A DNA stretch of 64,000 bases from Micromonospora sediminicola (GTDB taxonomy: Bacteria > Actinomycetota > Actinomycetes > Mycobacteriales > Micromonosporaceae): NCBI RefSeq assembly GCF_900089585.1, contig NZ_FLRH01000004.1, positions 1,233,001 to 1,297,000 on the forward strand, given 5' to 3'. Numbering within the stretch: the stretch's first letter is position 1; the number at the start of each line of letters is the position of its first letter. A program made the translations under genes and the position numbers. Positions 26,575 to 33,840 of this stretch are shown in pieces. Below the pieces are notes generated by a model. That model searched no databases. It was not told the origin of the DNA and saw only the letters and a program-made list of their open reading frames with translations.

Positions 26575-27549
<975 letters not shown>

Positions 27550-27894
27550 CTAGCGGGCGGCGGTGGCGCGCGCCGCGACCGCGTGCGAGGCGATGGCCGC
27601 CGCCGCGGCGAAGCCGAACGCGCCGCCGGCCACGGCCGGCAGGATGGTCACGCTGTCGCCGTCGTTGAGCTTGGCGTCGAGCGCGCCCAGGAAGCGGACG
27701 TCCTCGTCGTTGACGTAGACGTTGACGAACCGGTGCAGCGCCCCGGCGTCGGTGACCAGCCGGGCCCGCAGGCCGGCGTGCCGGGAGTCCAGGTCGGTGA
27801 GCAGGTCGGCGAGCGTGTCACCGCTGCCCTCGACGACCTTCGCGCCGCCGGTGTAGCTGCGCAGGATGGTGGGGATGCGAACCTCGATGGCCAT
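27550..27894 (-). CDS. cysO: Ubiquitin-like sulfur carrier CysO with extended C-terminus
   Basis: 114 residues; a ThiS/MoaD-type beta-grasp protein. IPTILRSYTGG, FVNVYVNDEDVRF and DGDSVTILPAVAGG match mycobacterial CysO. In that protein the Gly-Gly is the C-terminus and is adenylated and thiocarboxylated. Here Gly90-Gly91 is followed by 23 more residues (AFGFAAAAAIASHAVAARA and four more), in frame and ending in TAG. The carrier could not be activated until the tail is removed; the adjacent JAMM protease Mec is a candidate. An annotation error is unlikely as no stop or plausible frameshift lies at the Gly-Gly. Confidence 0.88.
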   Translation of the reverse strand: MAIEVRIPTILRSYTGGAKVVEGSGDTLADLLTDLDSRHAGLRARLVTDAGALHRFVNVYVNDEDVRFLGALDAKLNDGDSVTILPAVAGGAFGFAAAAAIASHAVAARATAAR

Positions 27895-27960
27895 GGTGTC
27901 TCGTGCTCCTCGTTCGGGTCGTGCCAGGTGACGGACAGGGAAGATGTGCCGGCGCTGGGG

Positions 27961-28449
27961 TCAGCGGCCGGAACACTCGTAGTCGACCGTCGCCGGGCTC
28001 TGCCCGAACATGTAGGACTGGACGGCGTGCGGGTCCACGGCGGCATCCACGATCTCGACCGGCTCCTCGGTGACCACGCCGTCGACGATCCGGAAGGAGC
28101 GGATCTCCTCGGTGTCGGACTCACGGGTCGAGACGAGCAGGTAGTGCGCTCCCGGCTCACCGGCGAAGGAGACGTCCGTGCGGGACGGGTAGGCCTCCGT
28201 GGCGGTGTGCGAGTGGTAGATGACGACCGGCTCCTCGTCGCGGTCGTCCATCTCGCGCCAGACCCGCAACTGCTCCATCGAGTCGAACTCGTAGAAGGTC
28301 ATCGAGCGGGCGGCGTTGTCCATCGGGATGTGCCGGGTCGGGGTGTCGCTGCCGGCGGGACCGGCGACCACGCCGCACGCCTCGTCCGGGTGGTCCCGAC
28401 GCGCGTGGGCGACGATCGCGTCGATGATCGACCGGTCGATGCTCAGCAC
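27961..28449 (-). CDS. mec: Mec, JAMM/MPN+ metalloprotease of CysO-cysteine
   Basis: 162 residues. A JAB1/MPN metalloprotease that in mycobacteria releases cysteine from the CysO-cysteine adduct. The zinc motif is complete: Glu23 in PDEACG, His79 and His81 in YHSHT, then Ser89 and Asp92 in SRTD. It is separated from cysO by 66 bp and is on the same strand. GTG 28449 is preceded at 7 nt by TAGGCT, suggesting a leaderless start. It may also cut the CysO tail (inference). Confidence 0.9.
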   Translation of the reverse strand: MLSIDRSIIDAIVAHARRDHPDEACGVVAGPAGSDTPTRHIPMDNAARSMTFYEFDSMEQLRVWREMDDRDEEPVVIYHSHTATEAYPSRTDVSFAGEPGAHYLLVSTRESDTEEIRSFRIVDGVVTEEPVEIVDAAVDPHAVQSYMFGQSPATVDYECSGR

Positions 28450-28504: not shown

Positions 28505-29008
28505 TCAGTCGATGAGCGCGTTGAGCAGGGACTCCTGCAGATATCCGAGATAGGCGTAGACCGACAGTTGGAACACCCGGGACGAGGCCGGGTCCGCGGC
28601 GACCGCGTCGTCGAGCTCCTCGCCCAGGTCGGTGCCGTCCTTGATCTCCAGCCGGACGCCCATCGCCAGCCGGGCGTCGTTGAGCGCGCGCAGCCACGCC
28701 TCGGCCGCCTCCGCGTCCAGCCGCACCTCGCCCCCGGCGTCGCCGTCGGGCAACGCGGCGAGGATCGCGCCGGCCTGGTCGATCTTGGCGGTCTTGAGGT
28801 CGCCCTCGGTGTAGCGGCGGAACTCGGCCGTGCCGGCCGCGTCCTCCGGATAGACCTCGGGGAACAGCCGGCCGACCACCGGGTCACCGTGGTCGAAGCC
28901 GTCGGTCAGCAGCCCGACCACCTCGGAGGCGACCTTGCGCAGCACGCGCACCTCGTCGACGGCGAACGTCGCCACGTAGCGGTCGCCCCGGCGGCGGAAC
29001 ATGCTCAT
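28505..29008 (-). CDS. DUF2017-family protein
   Basis: 167 residues. [21 protein letters not shown] at the start (split), [20 protein letters not shown] and a C-terminal [13 protein letters not shown] match the actinobacterial DUF2017 family that always follows clpS. Function is unknown; the constant coupling suggests a link to the ClpS adaptor or ClpAP/ClpCP proteolysis. ATG 29008 overlaps the clpS stop (ATGA). Four further codons back there is no alternative with a ribosome site. Confidence 0.85.
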
Positions 29009-29295
29009 GAGCGGTCCACCGTCGCCCACAACCCGTACGCGTGCAACTGCGACGCGTCGTGCTCCATCCGCTCCCGGGCCCCGCTGGAGACCACCGCCTT
29101 GCCCTTGTGGTGCACGTCCAGCATGAGCTGCTCCGCCTTCTCCCTGCTGTACCCGAAGAGCTTCTGGAAAACCCAGGTCACGTACGTCATCAGGTTGACC
29201 GGATCGTCCCAGACGATGGTCACCCACGGCCGGTCGGAGACCGGCACCTCTTCGGTGTCCGGCGTCTCGACCGGCGCAACCTGTGGAGCCGCCAT
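29005..29295 (-). CDS. clpS: ATP-dependent Clp protease adaptor ClpS
   Basis: 96 residues from ATG 29295. ClpS binds N-degron substrates and delivers them to the Clp ATPase. Motifs: [17 protein letters not shown] (the Asp-Asp-Pro-Val-Asn binding-site loop), [25 protein letters not shown] and [20 protein letters not shown]. The frame is open to 29442, but the upstream part has no ClpS character; ATG 29304 is a close alternative start. It heads the minus-strand clpS-DUF2017 pair. Confidence 0.92.
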
Positions 29296-29410: not shown

Positions 29411-30973
29411 TCAGGCAAGCAGGATGCCGTGGTCGACAGCATCGGTGAGCACCGCGCTCAGCGAGAGACGGATCACCTCGAAGCGGCGGGACACCTCGCG
29501 GGACAGTTCCAGCTCGACCTCGCGCAGGGCTCGCTGGGCCCAGGAGCGGGCGGCGCCCGGGTCATCGTTGCCCGGTGACCGCCAGTGCTGCCAACAGCCG
29601 CCGTTGAGCGCCACGCCGATCGGCGGCAGCACCTCGTCGCGCTCCGCCCCGGGCAGGCCGGCCAGCGCGTCGAGCGCGCCGGTGCCGGTCAGCCCGGCCA
29701 CCCCGGCCGTGCTGGTGACCAGGAGCACCCGGTCCAGCTCCCGGCTGTCCGGGTGGTCGGCCAGGCCCCAGCGCACGGCGTGGTCGATCCGCCGGCGCAC
29801 GCCCTCGGCGAGTGGCGCGCCGAAGACCCGGGCGGCGGCGTCGTCGACGATGCCCCGCACCGCCTCGTCGCACTGGGCCGTGGCGAGCAGCGACAGCGCC
29901 TCCAGCTCGCGGTCGAGCAGCTGCGGCAGACCGGCGCAGCCAACCCCGAAGACGATCTCCTGCACCACCCGCAGGTGGATGTTGGCCAGCTCCAGGGCGA
30001 GGTGCTGGCGGATCCGCTGGGCGCAGGAGCGGGCCTGGCGGTCGATCCGGTCGGTCAGCTCGGCGGGCTCGACCCCGGCCACCACCGGCACCCGGCCGTG
30101 CGCGCCGGGCGGCTCCGGCGGCCGGGCGCTGGCCCGGCGCAGCCCCTCGTCGGCGGCCCAGCCGACCAGGGCCCGGCGCAGGTTCGGCAGCTCCGCCCGG
30201 CGGGCCGGGAACCACCGGGCCGGGGCGAGAGCGGGCACCGCGGCCAGCAGCGCGGCGCGGTGGGCCGCGATCGAGACCGCCACCGGGTCGAGCCGACCGG
30301 CGGGGCCGGGCGGGCCGGTCCGGCCGGCCGACGGGACGGACGCCCCCGTGTCCTCCACCGCCGCGCCGTCCGCCGGCGCCGCCCAGCCGGTCACGCCGGG
30401 GGTGACCGCGAAGAAGACCGCGACCCGGGCCCGCGCCACCTCGGCCAGCAGGTGCAGCTCGGCCGCACTGAACGCCTGGTCGGCGGAGATCGTGAAGAGC
30501 AGCGCGCCGGCCCGGCCCACGGCGTCCAGCAGCACCCGGCCACCGGCCACGCCGAGGGCGCCGGTGTCCGGCGTGTCGAGCACCGAGAAGTGCCGCAGCA
30601 GCGGGTCGGGCAGGCTCAGCTCGACCCGGCGCGGCGGCCGGGCGAGCGCCGGGCCGGCGGCGAGCGGGTCGGCGCCGTAGGAGTGCGGCTGGCGGTAGCC
30701 CGGGACGTACGCGGCCCGGGTGGCGACCTTGGCGTGGTTGACCAGCAGGTGGCTGCCGGCGGGCACGGTGAGCGTCCCGGCGTCCAGCCCGAGCAGGCCG
30801 GCGATCAGCTCGCGTCGTCCGGCGCCCGCCGGACCGGCGACGACCACCGCCATCGGCTCGTCCGGCCCCGGCTCGGTCACCCCGACCCGGGTCGGCAGCG
30901 GGGCGCACCGGGGCGGCTCGGCCGGGCCTCCTGTTTCGGGCACGTCGACCGAGGGGAGTGGACCCGGCTTCAT
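29411..30973 (-). CDS. Degenerate P-loop (dynamin-like GTPase-type) protein
   Basis: 520 residues, no named family recognised. The N-terminal third looks like a GTPase domain: [15 protein letters not shown] at 42-56 has P-loop spacing but Arg53-Arg54 replaces the essential Lys-Ser/Thr, and [11 protein letters not shown] (131-141) resembles the G3 DTPG motif with the Gly changed. The remainder is mostly helical with charged and Leu-rich stretches ([17 protein letters not shown], then a C-terminal [19 protein letters not shown]), similar in character to stalks of bacterial dynamin-like proteins. It may have lost nucleotide hydrolysis. It diverges from the LAL regulator. Confidence 0.6.
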
Positions 30974-31155
30974 CAGGCGGCCTCCCGGTCAGGCGACCGG
31001 GGGGCCGGTCGCGGTCGAATCCCCTGGTCGCAGGGGATGCCGGAAGAGTACGTGTGTCAGGGATCCGACACCGAACACATCCGGTACTCACGGGTAATGA
31101 ACAGATTACTCAACTTCACTGCGTGACGGTCTGCGCGCGGACGGAACACCATCGA

Positions 31156-31161
31156 TATGCT
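31156..31161 (+). promoter_or_regulatory. Putative -10 box (TATGCT) of the LAL regulator, leaderless
   Basis: TATGCT ends 6 nt before ATG 31168 with no ribosome site between. The 194-bp divergent region also contains a relatively AT-rich stretch (31085-31120) that may hold the promoter of the opposite gene. Confidence 0.45.
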
Positions 31162-31167
31162 GCACCG

Positions 31168-33840
31168 ATGAGTAGGTGGGAGTTCGTCGGCCGAACGGAT
31201 GAACTCAACCGTCTGTTGTCGGCGGTCGGTGGCCCGGAGGGGCGCGGACTGCTCTTCAGCGGCGACGCCGGCGTCGGCAAGAGCCGGTTGCTGCGGGAGG
31301 GGGTGGCCGCGCTCTCGCCCGAACGTCACGCCATCTGGTCCGTCGCGGCCAGCGCGACCACCGCCGCGCTGCCGTTCGGCGGGCTGGTCCAGGTGCTCCC
31401 GGCCGCGCAACCGCAGGGCCTCTCCCCCGCCGGGATCCTGCGCTGGGCCGTGGACGTGCTCCAGGAACAGGCCGCCGGCCGGCCCATCGTGCTGGCCATC
31501 GACGACGCGCACCTGCTCGACCCGCCCTCGGCGGCGCTGGTGCACCTGGTCGCCCGGTCCGAGAACGCCACCGTGATCGGGACGCTGCGCAACGGGGAGC
31601 AGATCCCGCTGCCGATCCGCGCCCTGTGGACCGACGACCTGGTCGACCTGGTCGAGCTGGGGCCGCTCGGCCCGAGCGAGACCACCGGGCTGCTCGCCGC
31701 GATCCTGGGCGGCCCGGTCGACGCCGGCTCCTCCGAGCGCCTGTTCCGGCTCTCCGCCGGCAACCCGCTGCTGCTGCGCGAGCTGGTGCTGGCCGCCGAC
31801 GACGAGCTGAAGAGCACGTACGGGATCTGGAAGTGGACCGGCCGGCTGGAGCTGGCCCCCAGCCTCACCGACCTGATCGACACCCGGATCGGTCAGCTCA
31901 CCCCCTCCGTCCGGGCCGTGGTCGAGCTGGTCGCGTTCGGCGAGCCGCTCGGCCTGCACCTGCTCGAGCAGGCGGTCGATCCGACCGACGTGGAGACGGC
32001 CGAGGAACGCGGGCTCATCACCATGGTCCGCGACGACCGGCGGCTCAACGTCCGCCTGGCCCACCCGCTCTACGGCGAGGTGATGCGCCGGCAGTGCCCG
32101 GTCAGCCGCACCCGGCGGCTCCAGGCCACCCTGGCCGGGCTGCTGGAGCGGGTCGGCAAGCGCCGACGGGACGACCTGCTGCGGGTCGCGGTGTGGCGGC
32201 TCGACTCGGGCACGGCCCAGGACGTGGCGCTGCTCCTCGACGCGGCCGTGCAGGCCTTCGGCCGGTACGACGTGCCGCTGGCCACCCGGCTGGCCCGCGC
32301 CGCGCTGGAGGCCGGCGGCGGCACCGACGCCGCCGAGCTGCTCGCCACCATCCTCATGTTCGGCGACCGGCCGGACGAGGCGATCGGGGTGCTCGACCAG
32401 GTCGCCGGCGAGATCCACGACGATCGCCGACGGAGCCGTTGGCTGACCGTCCGGGGCATGGTCAGCTACTGGGGCCTCAACCGGGAGTCCACGGTGGAGG
32501 AGATCGCCGCCCGCGGCGAGGAGCTGTCCGACCCGGCCGACCGGGCCCGGGTCCGCGCCTTCGAGGCCATCATGCGGCTGCACCGGCTCGACGTCGACGT
32601 CGCGGTGCGGCTGGCCCAGGAGGTGCTCGACCGTCCGGCCGCCCCGATGGCGGCCCGCGAGCTGGCCCGCTGCACGCTCGCCCACCTTCAGGCGGCCCAG
32701 GGGCAGTACCGCCGCAGCGCCACCGCGATCGCCCGGGTGCAGGCCGAGGCCGCGTGCTGGCGGTCCGACATGCCCTACCTCCAACTCGCCATGGAGCTGG
32801 CCCGGGGCACCCGGCTGGCGCTCTCCGGCGACCTGGCCGGCATCGACGCGATCGTCGCGGACGAGTTCGCCGACCTGGCCGGTGCCGGCGACTTCCGGCT
32901 CGGCACCGGCTACCTGGCCATCCTCCAGGCGTACGCGGCCCGCCTGCGCGGACGCGGCGACGACGCGCTCAAGACCAGCCTGGGCGCCTGCGCGGTGCTC
33001 GCCACCAGCCGGGTGTACGCCGGCCTGGCGCACGCCGAACGCGCCCAGGCGGCGGCGTTGCGCGGGGACGCGGCGCACGCGGCCGAGGCGATGGCCGAGG
33101 CGGACCGGACGCACGCGCCCGGGATGGCCGTCCTCTACCCGTGGCTGGAGCAGGCCCGGGGCGCGGCGCAGGCGGCGGTCGGCGACCTGCCGGCGGCCAC
33201 CAAGCACCTCTGCGCGCTGGCCGACCGGCTGCGCGAGGACGGGCTGGCCGGGCACGAGCTGCTCGTCCTGCTCGACCTGGTCCGGTTCGACCAGGCCGCC
33301 GCGCCGGTCGGACCGACCTGCACCGACGGCGGCCGGCGCACCGTGGCGCAGCGCCTCGCGGAGCTCTCCGAACAGGTGGACGGCGTGCTGCCGCCGCTGG
33401 TCGCCCGCTACGGCCGGGCCGCGCTCGACGGCTCCCCCGACGACCTGCTCGCGGTGGCCGACGGCTTCGCCGCCCGCGATCTGGTCGTCTACGCCGCCGA
33501 GGCGACCGCGATGGCGCTGCACCGGATGCGGGACGGGCGCGCCGGAGCGACCGGGCCGGTCCGGGAGCGCCTCGCCGACCTGCTGCGCCGCTGCGACGAG
33601 ATCTCCACCCCGGCGCTGCGCATGCTCCGTCCCACGCTCAGCGACCGGGAGTGGGAGGTCGCCCGCCTCGCCGCCGAGGGCGTGACCAGCCGCGCGATCG
33701 CCGAACGGCTGTTCCTGTCCACCCGCACCGTGGAGAACCACCTCCAGCGGGTCTACAGCAAGCTCGGCGTCACCGGCCGCGGCGAGCTGCGGGCCGCGCT
33801 GCGGTCGATGCCGGGGCACGACGGCGCGGATCCGGCGTGA
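31168..33840 (+). CDS. LAL-type LuxR-family ATP-binding regulator
   Basis: 890 residues. An N-terminal AAA/STAND-like ATPase with Walker A GDAGVGKS (32-39) and Walker B IVLAIDDAHLLDPPS, a long TPR-like helical middle, and a C-terminal LuxR helix-turn-helix (LSDREWEVARLAAEGVTS, then RTVENHLQRVYSKLGVTGR). LAL regulators activate transcription in response to inducers sensed by the middle region. No target can be read; the divergent degenerate-GTPase gene and the downstream pncB are neighbours. ATG 31168 is set by the FVGRTDEL ATPase start and by the -10 box 6 nt before it. Confidence 0.87.
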   Translation: MSRWEFVGRTDELNRLLSAVGGPEGRGLLFSGDAGVGKSRLLREGVAALSPERHAIWSVAASATTAALPFGGLVQVLPAAQPQGLSPAGILRWAVDVLQEQAAGRPIVLAIDDAHLLDPPSAALVHLVARSENATVIGTLRNGEQIPLPIRALWTDDLVDLVELGPLGPSETTGLLAAILGGPVDAGSSERLFRLSAGNPLLLRELVLAADDELKSTYGIWKWTGRLELAPSLTDLIDTRIGQLTPSVRAVVELVAFGEPLGLHLLEQAVDPTDVETAEERGLITMVRDDRRLNVRLAHPLYGEVMRRQCPVSRTRRLQATLAGLLERVGKRRRDDLLRVAVWRLDSGTAQDVALLLDAAVQAFGRYDVPLATRLARAALEAGGGTDAAELLATILMFGDRPDEAIGVLDQVAGEIHDDRRRSRWLTVRGMVSYWGLNRESTVEEIAARGEELSDPADRARVRAFEAIMRLHRLDVDVAVRLAQEVLDRPAAPMAARELARCTLAHLQAAQGQYRRSATAIARVQAEAACWRSDMPYLQLAMELARGTRLALSGDLAGIDAIVADEFADLAGAGDFRLGTGYLAILQAYAARLRGRGDDALKTSLGACAVLATSRVYAGLAHAERAQAAALRGDAAHAAEAMAEADRTHAPGMAVLYPWLEQARGAAQAAVGDLPAATKHLCALADRLREDGLAGHELLVLLDLVRFDQAAAPVGPTCTDGGRRTVAQRLAELSEQVDGVLPPLVARYGRAALDGSPDDLLAVADGFAARDLVVYAAEATAMALHRMRDGRAGATGPVRERLADLLRRCDEISTPALRMLRPTLSDREWEVARLAAEGVTSRAIAERLFLSTRTVENHLQRVYSKLGVTGRGELRAALRSMPGHDGADPA

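Follow-up and report, generated by a model that had tools for sequence, protein, structure and literature searches.

Behind the diglycine of Micromonospora CysO lies a constrained tail that the JAMM peptidase Mec probably removes

We wondered how a sulfur carrier can function when its glycine pair is internal to the encoded protein. The E1 enzyme activates the C-terminal glycine of its carrier, and CysM takes the sulfur from there. In the window, the 64,000-nucleotide stretch of Micromonospora sediminicola DNA analyzed here, the cysO reading frame (27550–27894, minus strand; ATG start, 114 amino acids, Pfam ThiS) continues past the conserved Gly90-Gly91 (27622–27627, minus) for 23 residues, AFGFAAAAAIASHAVAARATAAR, before its TAG stop codon (27550–27552, minus), and the encoded CysO thus does not end at Gly-Gly. 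The Pfam ThiS profile (64.7 bits) spans residues 5–91 only, which places this part in the beta-grasp ThiS/MoaD fold, and the sequences of solved CysO proteins align to residues 1–91 (27622–27894, minus) and stop at PAVAGG. An AF2 model calculated with 59 relatives in the alignment matched the CysO structures 4n6e_B, 3dwg_C, and 3dwm_A with TM-scores by target of 0.90–0.92. The body was mostly predicted with confidence, residues 90–96 fell below 50, and the tail was drawn as a helix (92–113) with block means of 49–62, a low-confidence element and not a confidently packed cap. The carrier fold and the PAVAGG ending are those of the CysO/Mec/CysM pathway of Mycobacterium tuberculosis (3dwm, 3dwg), where, in the available text of PMC3227635, Mec and CysM are likewise the partners; the solved M. 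tuberculosis chain stops at Gly-Gly, whereas the window protein has 23 more residues.

The surrounding genes all lie on the minus strand in the order clpS (29005–29295; Pfam ClpS, 79.8 bits), a DUF2017/AosR-like gene (28505–29008; Pfam DUF2017, 162 bits; NCBIfam AosR, 66.4 bits against a cut-off of 260), mec (27961–28449, GTG start), cysO, and cysM (26575–27540), with 9 bases between the cysO stop and the cysM start. CysM is a PLP cysteine synthase (Pfam PALP; NCBIfam cysKM, 341 bits, slightly below the cut-off of 344.15), and the position of cysO between cysM and an intact JAMM gene is that of the CysO sulfur carrier. Mec, our candidate trimming enzyme, is a JAMM/JAB peptidase (Pfam Prok-JAB, 108.5 bits) with a complete E..H-S-H-x7-S-x2-D motif (E23, H79-S80-H81, S89, and D92), the six columns of which are invariant in all 264 aligned distinct Mec/CysO/CysM sets. 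Against the NCBIfam model for the haloarchaeal desampylase it scored 75.4 bits, below the cut-off of 130. The reading frame, the Pfam boundary, and the invariant motif bear out the initial annotation, which had described a 23-residue tail past Gly90-Gly91 beside a JAMM gene with all motif residues. The same gene set appears as actinobacterial operon type 4d in Iyer et al. 2006 (PMC1779556), comprising a MoaD-like protein, a JAB protein, a cysteine synthase, ClpS, and a helical protein; judged by its position, the DUF2017 product would be the helical protein. The available part of that paper envisages JAB proteins releasing fused ThiS/MoaD domains and describes no tails on a stand-alone carrier.

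To establish how widespread the tail is, we collected 293 loci from part of the matches of a genome search (genomes drawn automatically), from 80 named contigs (the best 80 of 464 relatives), and from fetched regions; the set includes repeats of one genome and holds 274 distinct cysO sequences. The diglycine is at the expected place in all of them and in 30 loci added later. CysO was present in all 24 same-genus relatives drawn, and every one reads through Gly-Gly into A[FL]GF, which leaves no sign of a sequencing error at the end of the gene. By row, 129 tails start with [AS][FLI][GA][FLI] and are 6–50 residues long, 46 proteins stop at Gly-Gly, 75 continue for one or two residues, and 43 have a different tail of at least three. 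A stricter motif, requiring at least eight residues with Ala or Met at positions 7–9 and so leaving out the six-residue tail SLAIWA, is carried by 59 of 60 genomes of the same genus, the exception being G267 (GG-AR-stop). Near relatives therefore do not stop at Gly-Gly, with few exceptions; a sequencing or assembly error behind the tail is ruled out by these genomes, and a frameshift beyond an original stop by a frame that is open and constrained at the protein level. Among the named Micromonospora loci, 16 of 17 have A[FL]GF, and Micromonospora sp. HNM0581 has another kind of tail. Within the Micromonosporaceae, the motif occurs in at least one genome of 26 of the 42 genera in which CysO was read and is missing from 16; the remaining 24 motif rows all carry Micromonosporaceae names, and no tail of this type was found among the loci read outside the family. 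Three of 300 family genomes had no CysO match, and the same three had no Mec. In another family of the same order (f8), five of eight loci stop at Gly-Gly and three do not. Of the 129 motif tails, 98 end in Arg and 2 in Ala, despite the Ala-rich distal tail.

A tree of Mec, CysO, and CysM was calculated with IQ-TREE in its careful setting (LG+G4) for 167 rows, taken from 282 loci with all three genes, 264 of them distinct, thinned at 95% identity save eight rows kept on purpose. All rows with the motif fall inside a single clade (55 rows, support 100/96), and over the whole tree the motif state switches 9 times. The root was set at the midpoint and gain or loss judged from nesting, for which one gain followed by several losses is the natural reading. 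Rows without the motif inside the clade include G267, Micromonospora sp. HNM0581, two of the four loci of genus g50, and small genera whose tails are short, of another kind, or absent.

Selection on the tail was examined in 69 distinct Micromonospora-type rows and, by counting changes along a tree, in 68. The first ten tail residues, AFGFAAAAAI (27592–27621, minus), gave a pN/pS of 0.130, compared with 0.245 for the body and 0.123 for body residues 60–89, although the rows had been picked by A[FL]G[FL]AA, which biases the first six positions to conservation and leaves out G267, HNM0581, and G012 (tail AFGFVAAR). Synonymous change is faster in this part of the tail than in the body (pS of 0.31 against 0.19). 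The distal tail, ASHAVAARATAAR (27553–27591, minus), differs between species in sequence and length, and its positions 11–16 gave a pN/pS of 0.970 in an ungapped alignment. On the tree, amino acid and synonymous changes numbered 166 and 362 in the body, 17 and 82 at tail positions 1–10, and 93 and 40 at positions 11–16 (Fisher P of 4e-16 between the two tail parts), where the ungapped reading inflates the counts for 11–16 as tail lengths differ. At positions 7–10, outside the selection pattern, synonymous changes numbered 40 and amino acid changes 14, of which position 10 alone had 9. The alanines at positions 5, 6, and 8 had no amino acid change at all, with 12, 22, and 11 codon changes, respectively. 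Because the alanine codons vary while the residues are fixed, and because positions 1–10 contrast with 11–16, the first ten residues are under purifying selection at the protein level, tied to Gly-Gly; positions 11–16 drift. The earlier description of the tail as Ala-rich and weakly hydrophobic is correct as such, but the constraint is limited to the first ten residues and in some species the remainder consists of tandem copies. Five Micromonospora loci (L015, L017, L018, L065, and L068) have distal tails with up to three tandem units of about ten residues, AAAAAI[AS][QS]H[SG]. An RNA hairpin at the cysO stop and cysM start, suspected from the conserved gene end and single-sequence folds and considered as a reason for the terminal Arg, was unsupported: the mean z, calculated for 60 of 68 sequences, was −0.69 compared with −0.18 for a control piece, and RNAalifold gave no consensus structure at this site.

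Residues past Gly-Gly are not peculiar to the Micromonosporaceae. Thirty genomes were added to widen the spread, and clustering of the resulting 323 loci on the final 60 residues of the body (90% identity) gave 124 clusters. At least one residue follows Gly-Gly in 263 of the 323 loci (related loci and repeats included), and a Gly-Gly terminus therefore cannot define the CysO family; by cluster weight, Gly-Gly-terminal CysO accounts for 45.8 of the 124, and in 80 clusters one or more members extend beyond the diglycine. The first residue past it is Ala (weight 39), Ser (22), Met (12.9), Gly (2.1), Cys (2), Thr (1), or Arg (1). One of Ala, Ser, Met, Cys, and Gly thus stands first in 78 of the 80 clusters, where the composition of free tail positions predicts 52%; at the second position of the same proteins, our control for kinship, the figure is 19 of 69, a free choice with Arg commonest. 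On the smaller 293-locus set, a binomial test with counts rounded to 61 of 63 gave a P of 3e-15, which is too small because the clusters are related and not fully independent. Serine at the first position is spelled by both TCN and AGC codons; therefore, the choice is one of residue and not of base. Most rows with Met in this place come from Streptomycetaceae and Glycomyces-like genomes. In Streptomyces the cysO stop and cysM start often overlap or nearly do, and translational coupling to cysM may favor some codons there.

In the Geodermatophilaceae, 11 of 19 named loci read GG-Cys-stop (L081, L083, L084, L087, L090, L092, L094, L096, L098, L102, and L108, from Blastococcus, Modestobacter, and Geodermatophilus), 7 stop at Gly-Gly, and 1 continues further; genome G039, which groups with this family, also has GG-Cys. 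As GG-Cys-stop is CysO-Cys, the known substrate of Mec, the ribosome in those Geodermatophilaceae makes the Mec substrate directly. Elsewhere, four loci (L160, L071, L308, and L319) have tails in which the end of the carrier recurs (VAGG units, ILPAVAGG) and hence more than one Gly-Gly.

JAMM trimming of sulfur carriers is already known from other pathways. In 2007, Godert et al. reportedly found that the JAMM protein QbsD trims the residues past Gly-Gly of QbsE, a tail of two. In methionine synthesis of Wolinella succinogenes, the JAMM protein HcyD removes a single Ala past the Gly-Gly of HcyS, which differs from the Micromonospora case in lineage and in being one residue only. QbsE is the sulfur carrier of the thioquinolobactin pathway of Pseudomonas fluorescens in the available text of PMC3053476, and the present locus shares with it the residues past Gly-Gly and the JAMM gene beside the carrier; in place of the two residues reportedly trimmed from QbsE it has a conserved ten-residue element and a spacer, and it serves cysteine synthesis. 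Carriers are also freed by a cut after glycine in two fusion proteins, according to the portions available of PMC4326299 and PMC8832034. M. tuberculosis MoaX is cut at Gly82-Ser83, the cleavage is obligatory, and the protease was not identified there (PMC4326299); its Ser falls within the set of residues seen in CysO. The Deinococcus radiodurans JAMM protein DRJAMM cleaves a MoaD-MoaE fusion (PMC8832034). A functional enzyme domain follows the carrier in both of these, as against what we propose to be a disposable tail in CysO.

We consider it likely that CysO is a pro-protein, that Mec removes its tail, and that the first ten tail residues are the selected element. CysO would be translated in the extended form; the MoeZ-type E1 and CysM would require a free C-terminal Gly-Gly, so the tail would have to come off first. 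That it is removed is very probable, and Mec is the probable enzyme. Mec hydrolyzes CysO-Cys in M. tuberculosis, cutting after Gly-Gly (available text of PMC3227635), and would most likely cut pro-CysO at Gly91-Ala92, the same type of bond. It would then act twice, once in maturation of the carrier and afterwards in every cycle to release cysteine, with tail residues 1–10, behind the scissile bond, serving for recognition or presentation and the rest as a spacer. The initial proposal of a pro-form trimmed by the adjacent Mec stands as the best reading of a tail that is real, clade-wide, present on CysO but not on the ThiS or MoaD of the genome, and constrained behind Gly-Gly. The fetched stretch includes a mec gene on the strand of cysO in 287 of the 293 loci and 28 of the 30 added ones, and of the six loci of the first set without a nearby Mec, the three examined all had one elsewhere in the genome. 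Against trimming by Mec count the facts that Mec adjoins tail-less CysO too, so that adjacency does not discriminate, that the repeated loss of the tail makes it dispensable, and that Met as the first residue is no obvious mimic of Cys. A scan of 416 variable positions of Mec, CysO, and CysM over 7 independent pairs, a design of low power, revealed no Mec position that follows the presence of the tail; the highest net score was 3.0 out of 7 pairs, and the two best-scoring positions were in CysO and CysM. Position 97 of Mec (Glu, counted in the aligned part) had seemed to track the tail when tailed and tail-less rows were compared, and was dropped since Glu is also the usual residue in the tail-less rows of the tree, and close sister rows share their residue whether or not they have the tail. 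An AF2 model of a Mec-CysO read-through (47 relatives) gave a pTM of 0.48 and no confident complex, with the tail helix scoring 67–82.

The missing covariation with Mec would also fit trimming by a housekeeping endo- or carboxypeptidase in place of Mec, which would then hydrolyze CysO-Cys only. Outside the Micromonosporaceae the tails vary widely in length and sequence, as expected for an exopeptidase that proceeds stepwise and stalls at Gly-Gly. We nevertheless regard this explanation as improbable, because the constraint at positions 1–10 and the restricted first residue are what an enzyme reading the Gly-Gly bond would impose; within the neighborhood, the six identified genes include no other peptidase.

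Trimming by Mec might, beyond maturing the carrier, also be regulated. The two other ThiS-family proteins of the genome end exactly at Gly-Gly (ThiS in ..ATQGG, MoaD in ..PFAGG), and the tail is on CysO alone. There is one strong ThiF-type E1 match (287 bits; contig C3:1162881), which has a rhodanese-like end and which we read as a MoeZ-type E1 from its sequence. Three further ThiF matches are pieces of 32–37 codons with 21–25 bits; one of them reaches the family cut-off jointly with its neighbors in frame, and this frame of about 400 codons looks like a divergent ThiF-like protein. One E1 likely serves all three carriers, ThiS, MoaD, and CysO. With a single strong E1 match and an AosR-like gene in the operon, the tail could delay CysO selectively and hold it inactive until regulated trimming by Mec sets cysteine output, the proteolytic switch on cysteine synthesis that the initial annotation had suggested. 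For this suggestion we found no direct support: the tail has been lost several times in the clade with Mec retained, no Mec position covaried with it over the independent pairs (low power), and the modeled tail is a low-confidence helix and not a confidently packed cap. A switch is accordingly unlikely. We would give a similarly doubtful standing to a timing gate, in which ThiS, MoaD, and CysO share the one MoeZ-type E1, only CysO is capped, and pro-CysO and CysO-Cys compete for Mec. If it were true, Mec activity would set both the pool of usable carrier and cysteine output, and the ten-residue element would be a selected propeptide of a bacterial sulfur carrier, of which our literature search gave no earlier case.

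It is very unlikely that the tail is retained for another role such as membrane anchoring, a degron, or CysM docking. The last residues of the body and the tail do form a hydrophobic run (best 19-residue mean of 1.89 in the window protein), and the regular terminal Arg is left unexplained by trimming; the tail alone, however, reaches only 1.33 over 19 residues, clear constraint covers only its first ten, Dactylosporangium tails are 12 residues long and contain His and Arg, an ssrA-like degron would favor the terminal Ala that is found in 2 of 129 tails, and by the known chemistry an uncut tail blocks Gly-Gly. A neutral run-on, in which the stop moved downstream and the tail is junk, fits positions 11–16 and perhaps many short tails elsewhere but is refuted for positions 1–10, where the residues are conserved between genera while synonymous change is free, and has next to no likelihood as an account of the whole.

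Among the matches listed by our literature search, no title or abstract start dealt with CysO tails in Micromonosporaceae, subscription journals being mostly outside its coverage. Nor did this search yield an earlier account of a family-wide tail with its first ten residues under selection, of residues past Gly-Gly being more common than not among actinobacterial CysO clusters, or of a restricted first residue and a genetically spelled CysO-Cys. If trimming by Mec is correct, a CysO ending at Gly-Gly fails as a picture for most of the actinobacterial clusters read, the JAMM enzyme of the pathway gains a second job in maturation, and cysteine synthesis in antibiotic-producing genera would be linked to the precursor processing known from ubiquitin. 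The reason for a JAMM gene accompanying the sulfur carrier CysO would become testable. In practice, expressing full-length cysO in a host lacking Mec should then yield an inactive carrier.

Two minor observations concern other proteins. Locus L336 (G349) encodes a CysO-like protein whose last residues are Gly-Gly; its stretch gave no Mec match and a CysM match of only 24 bits, and the protein is possibly the carrier of another pathway. Within the window, the translation of a plus-strand reading frame of 960 amino acids (30958–33840) resembles a large LuxR-type regulator with an ATPase part.
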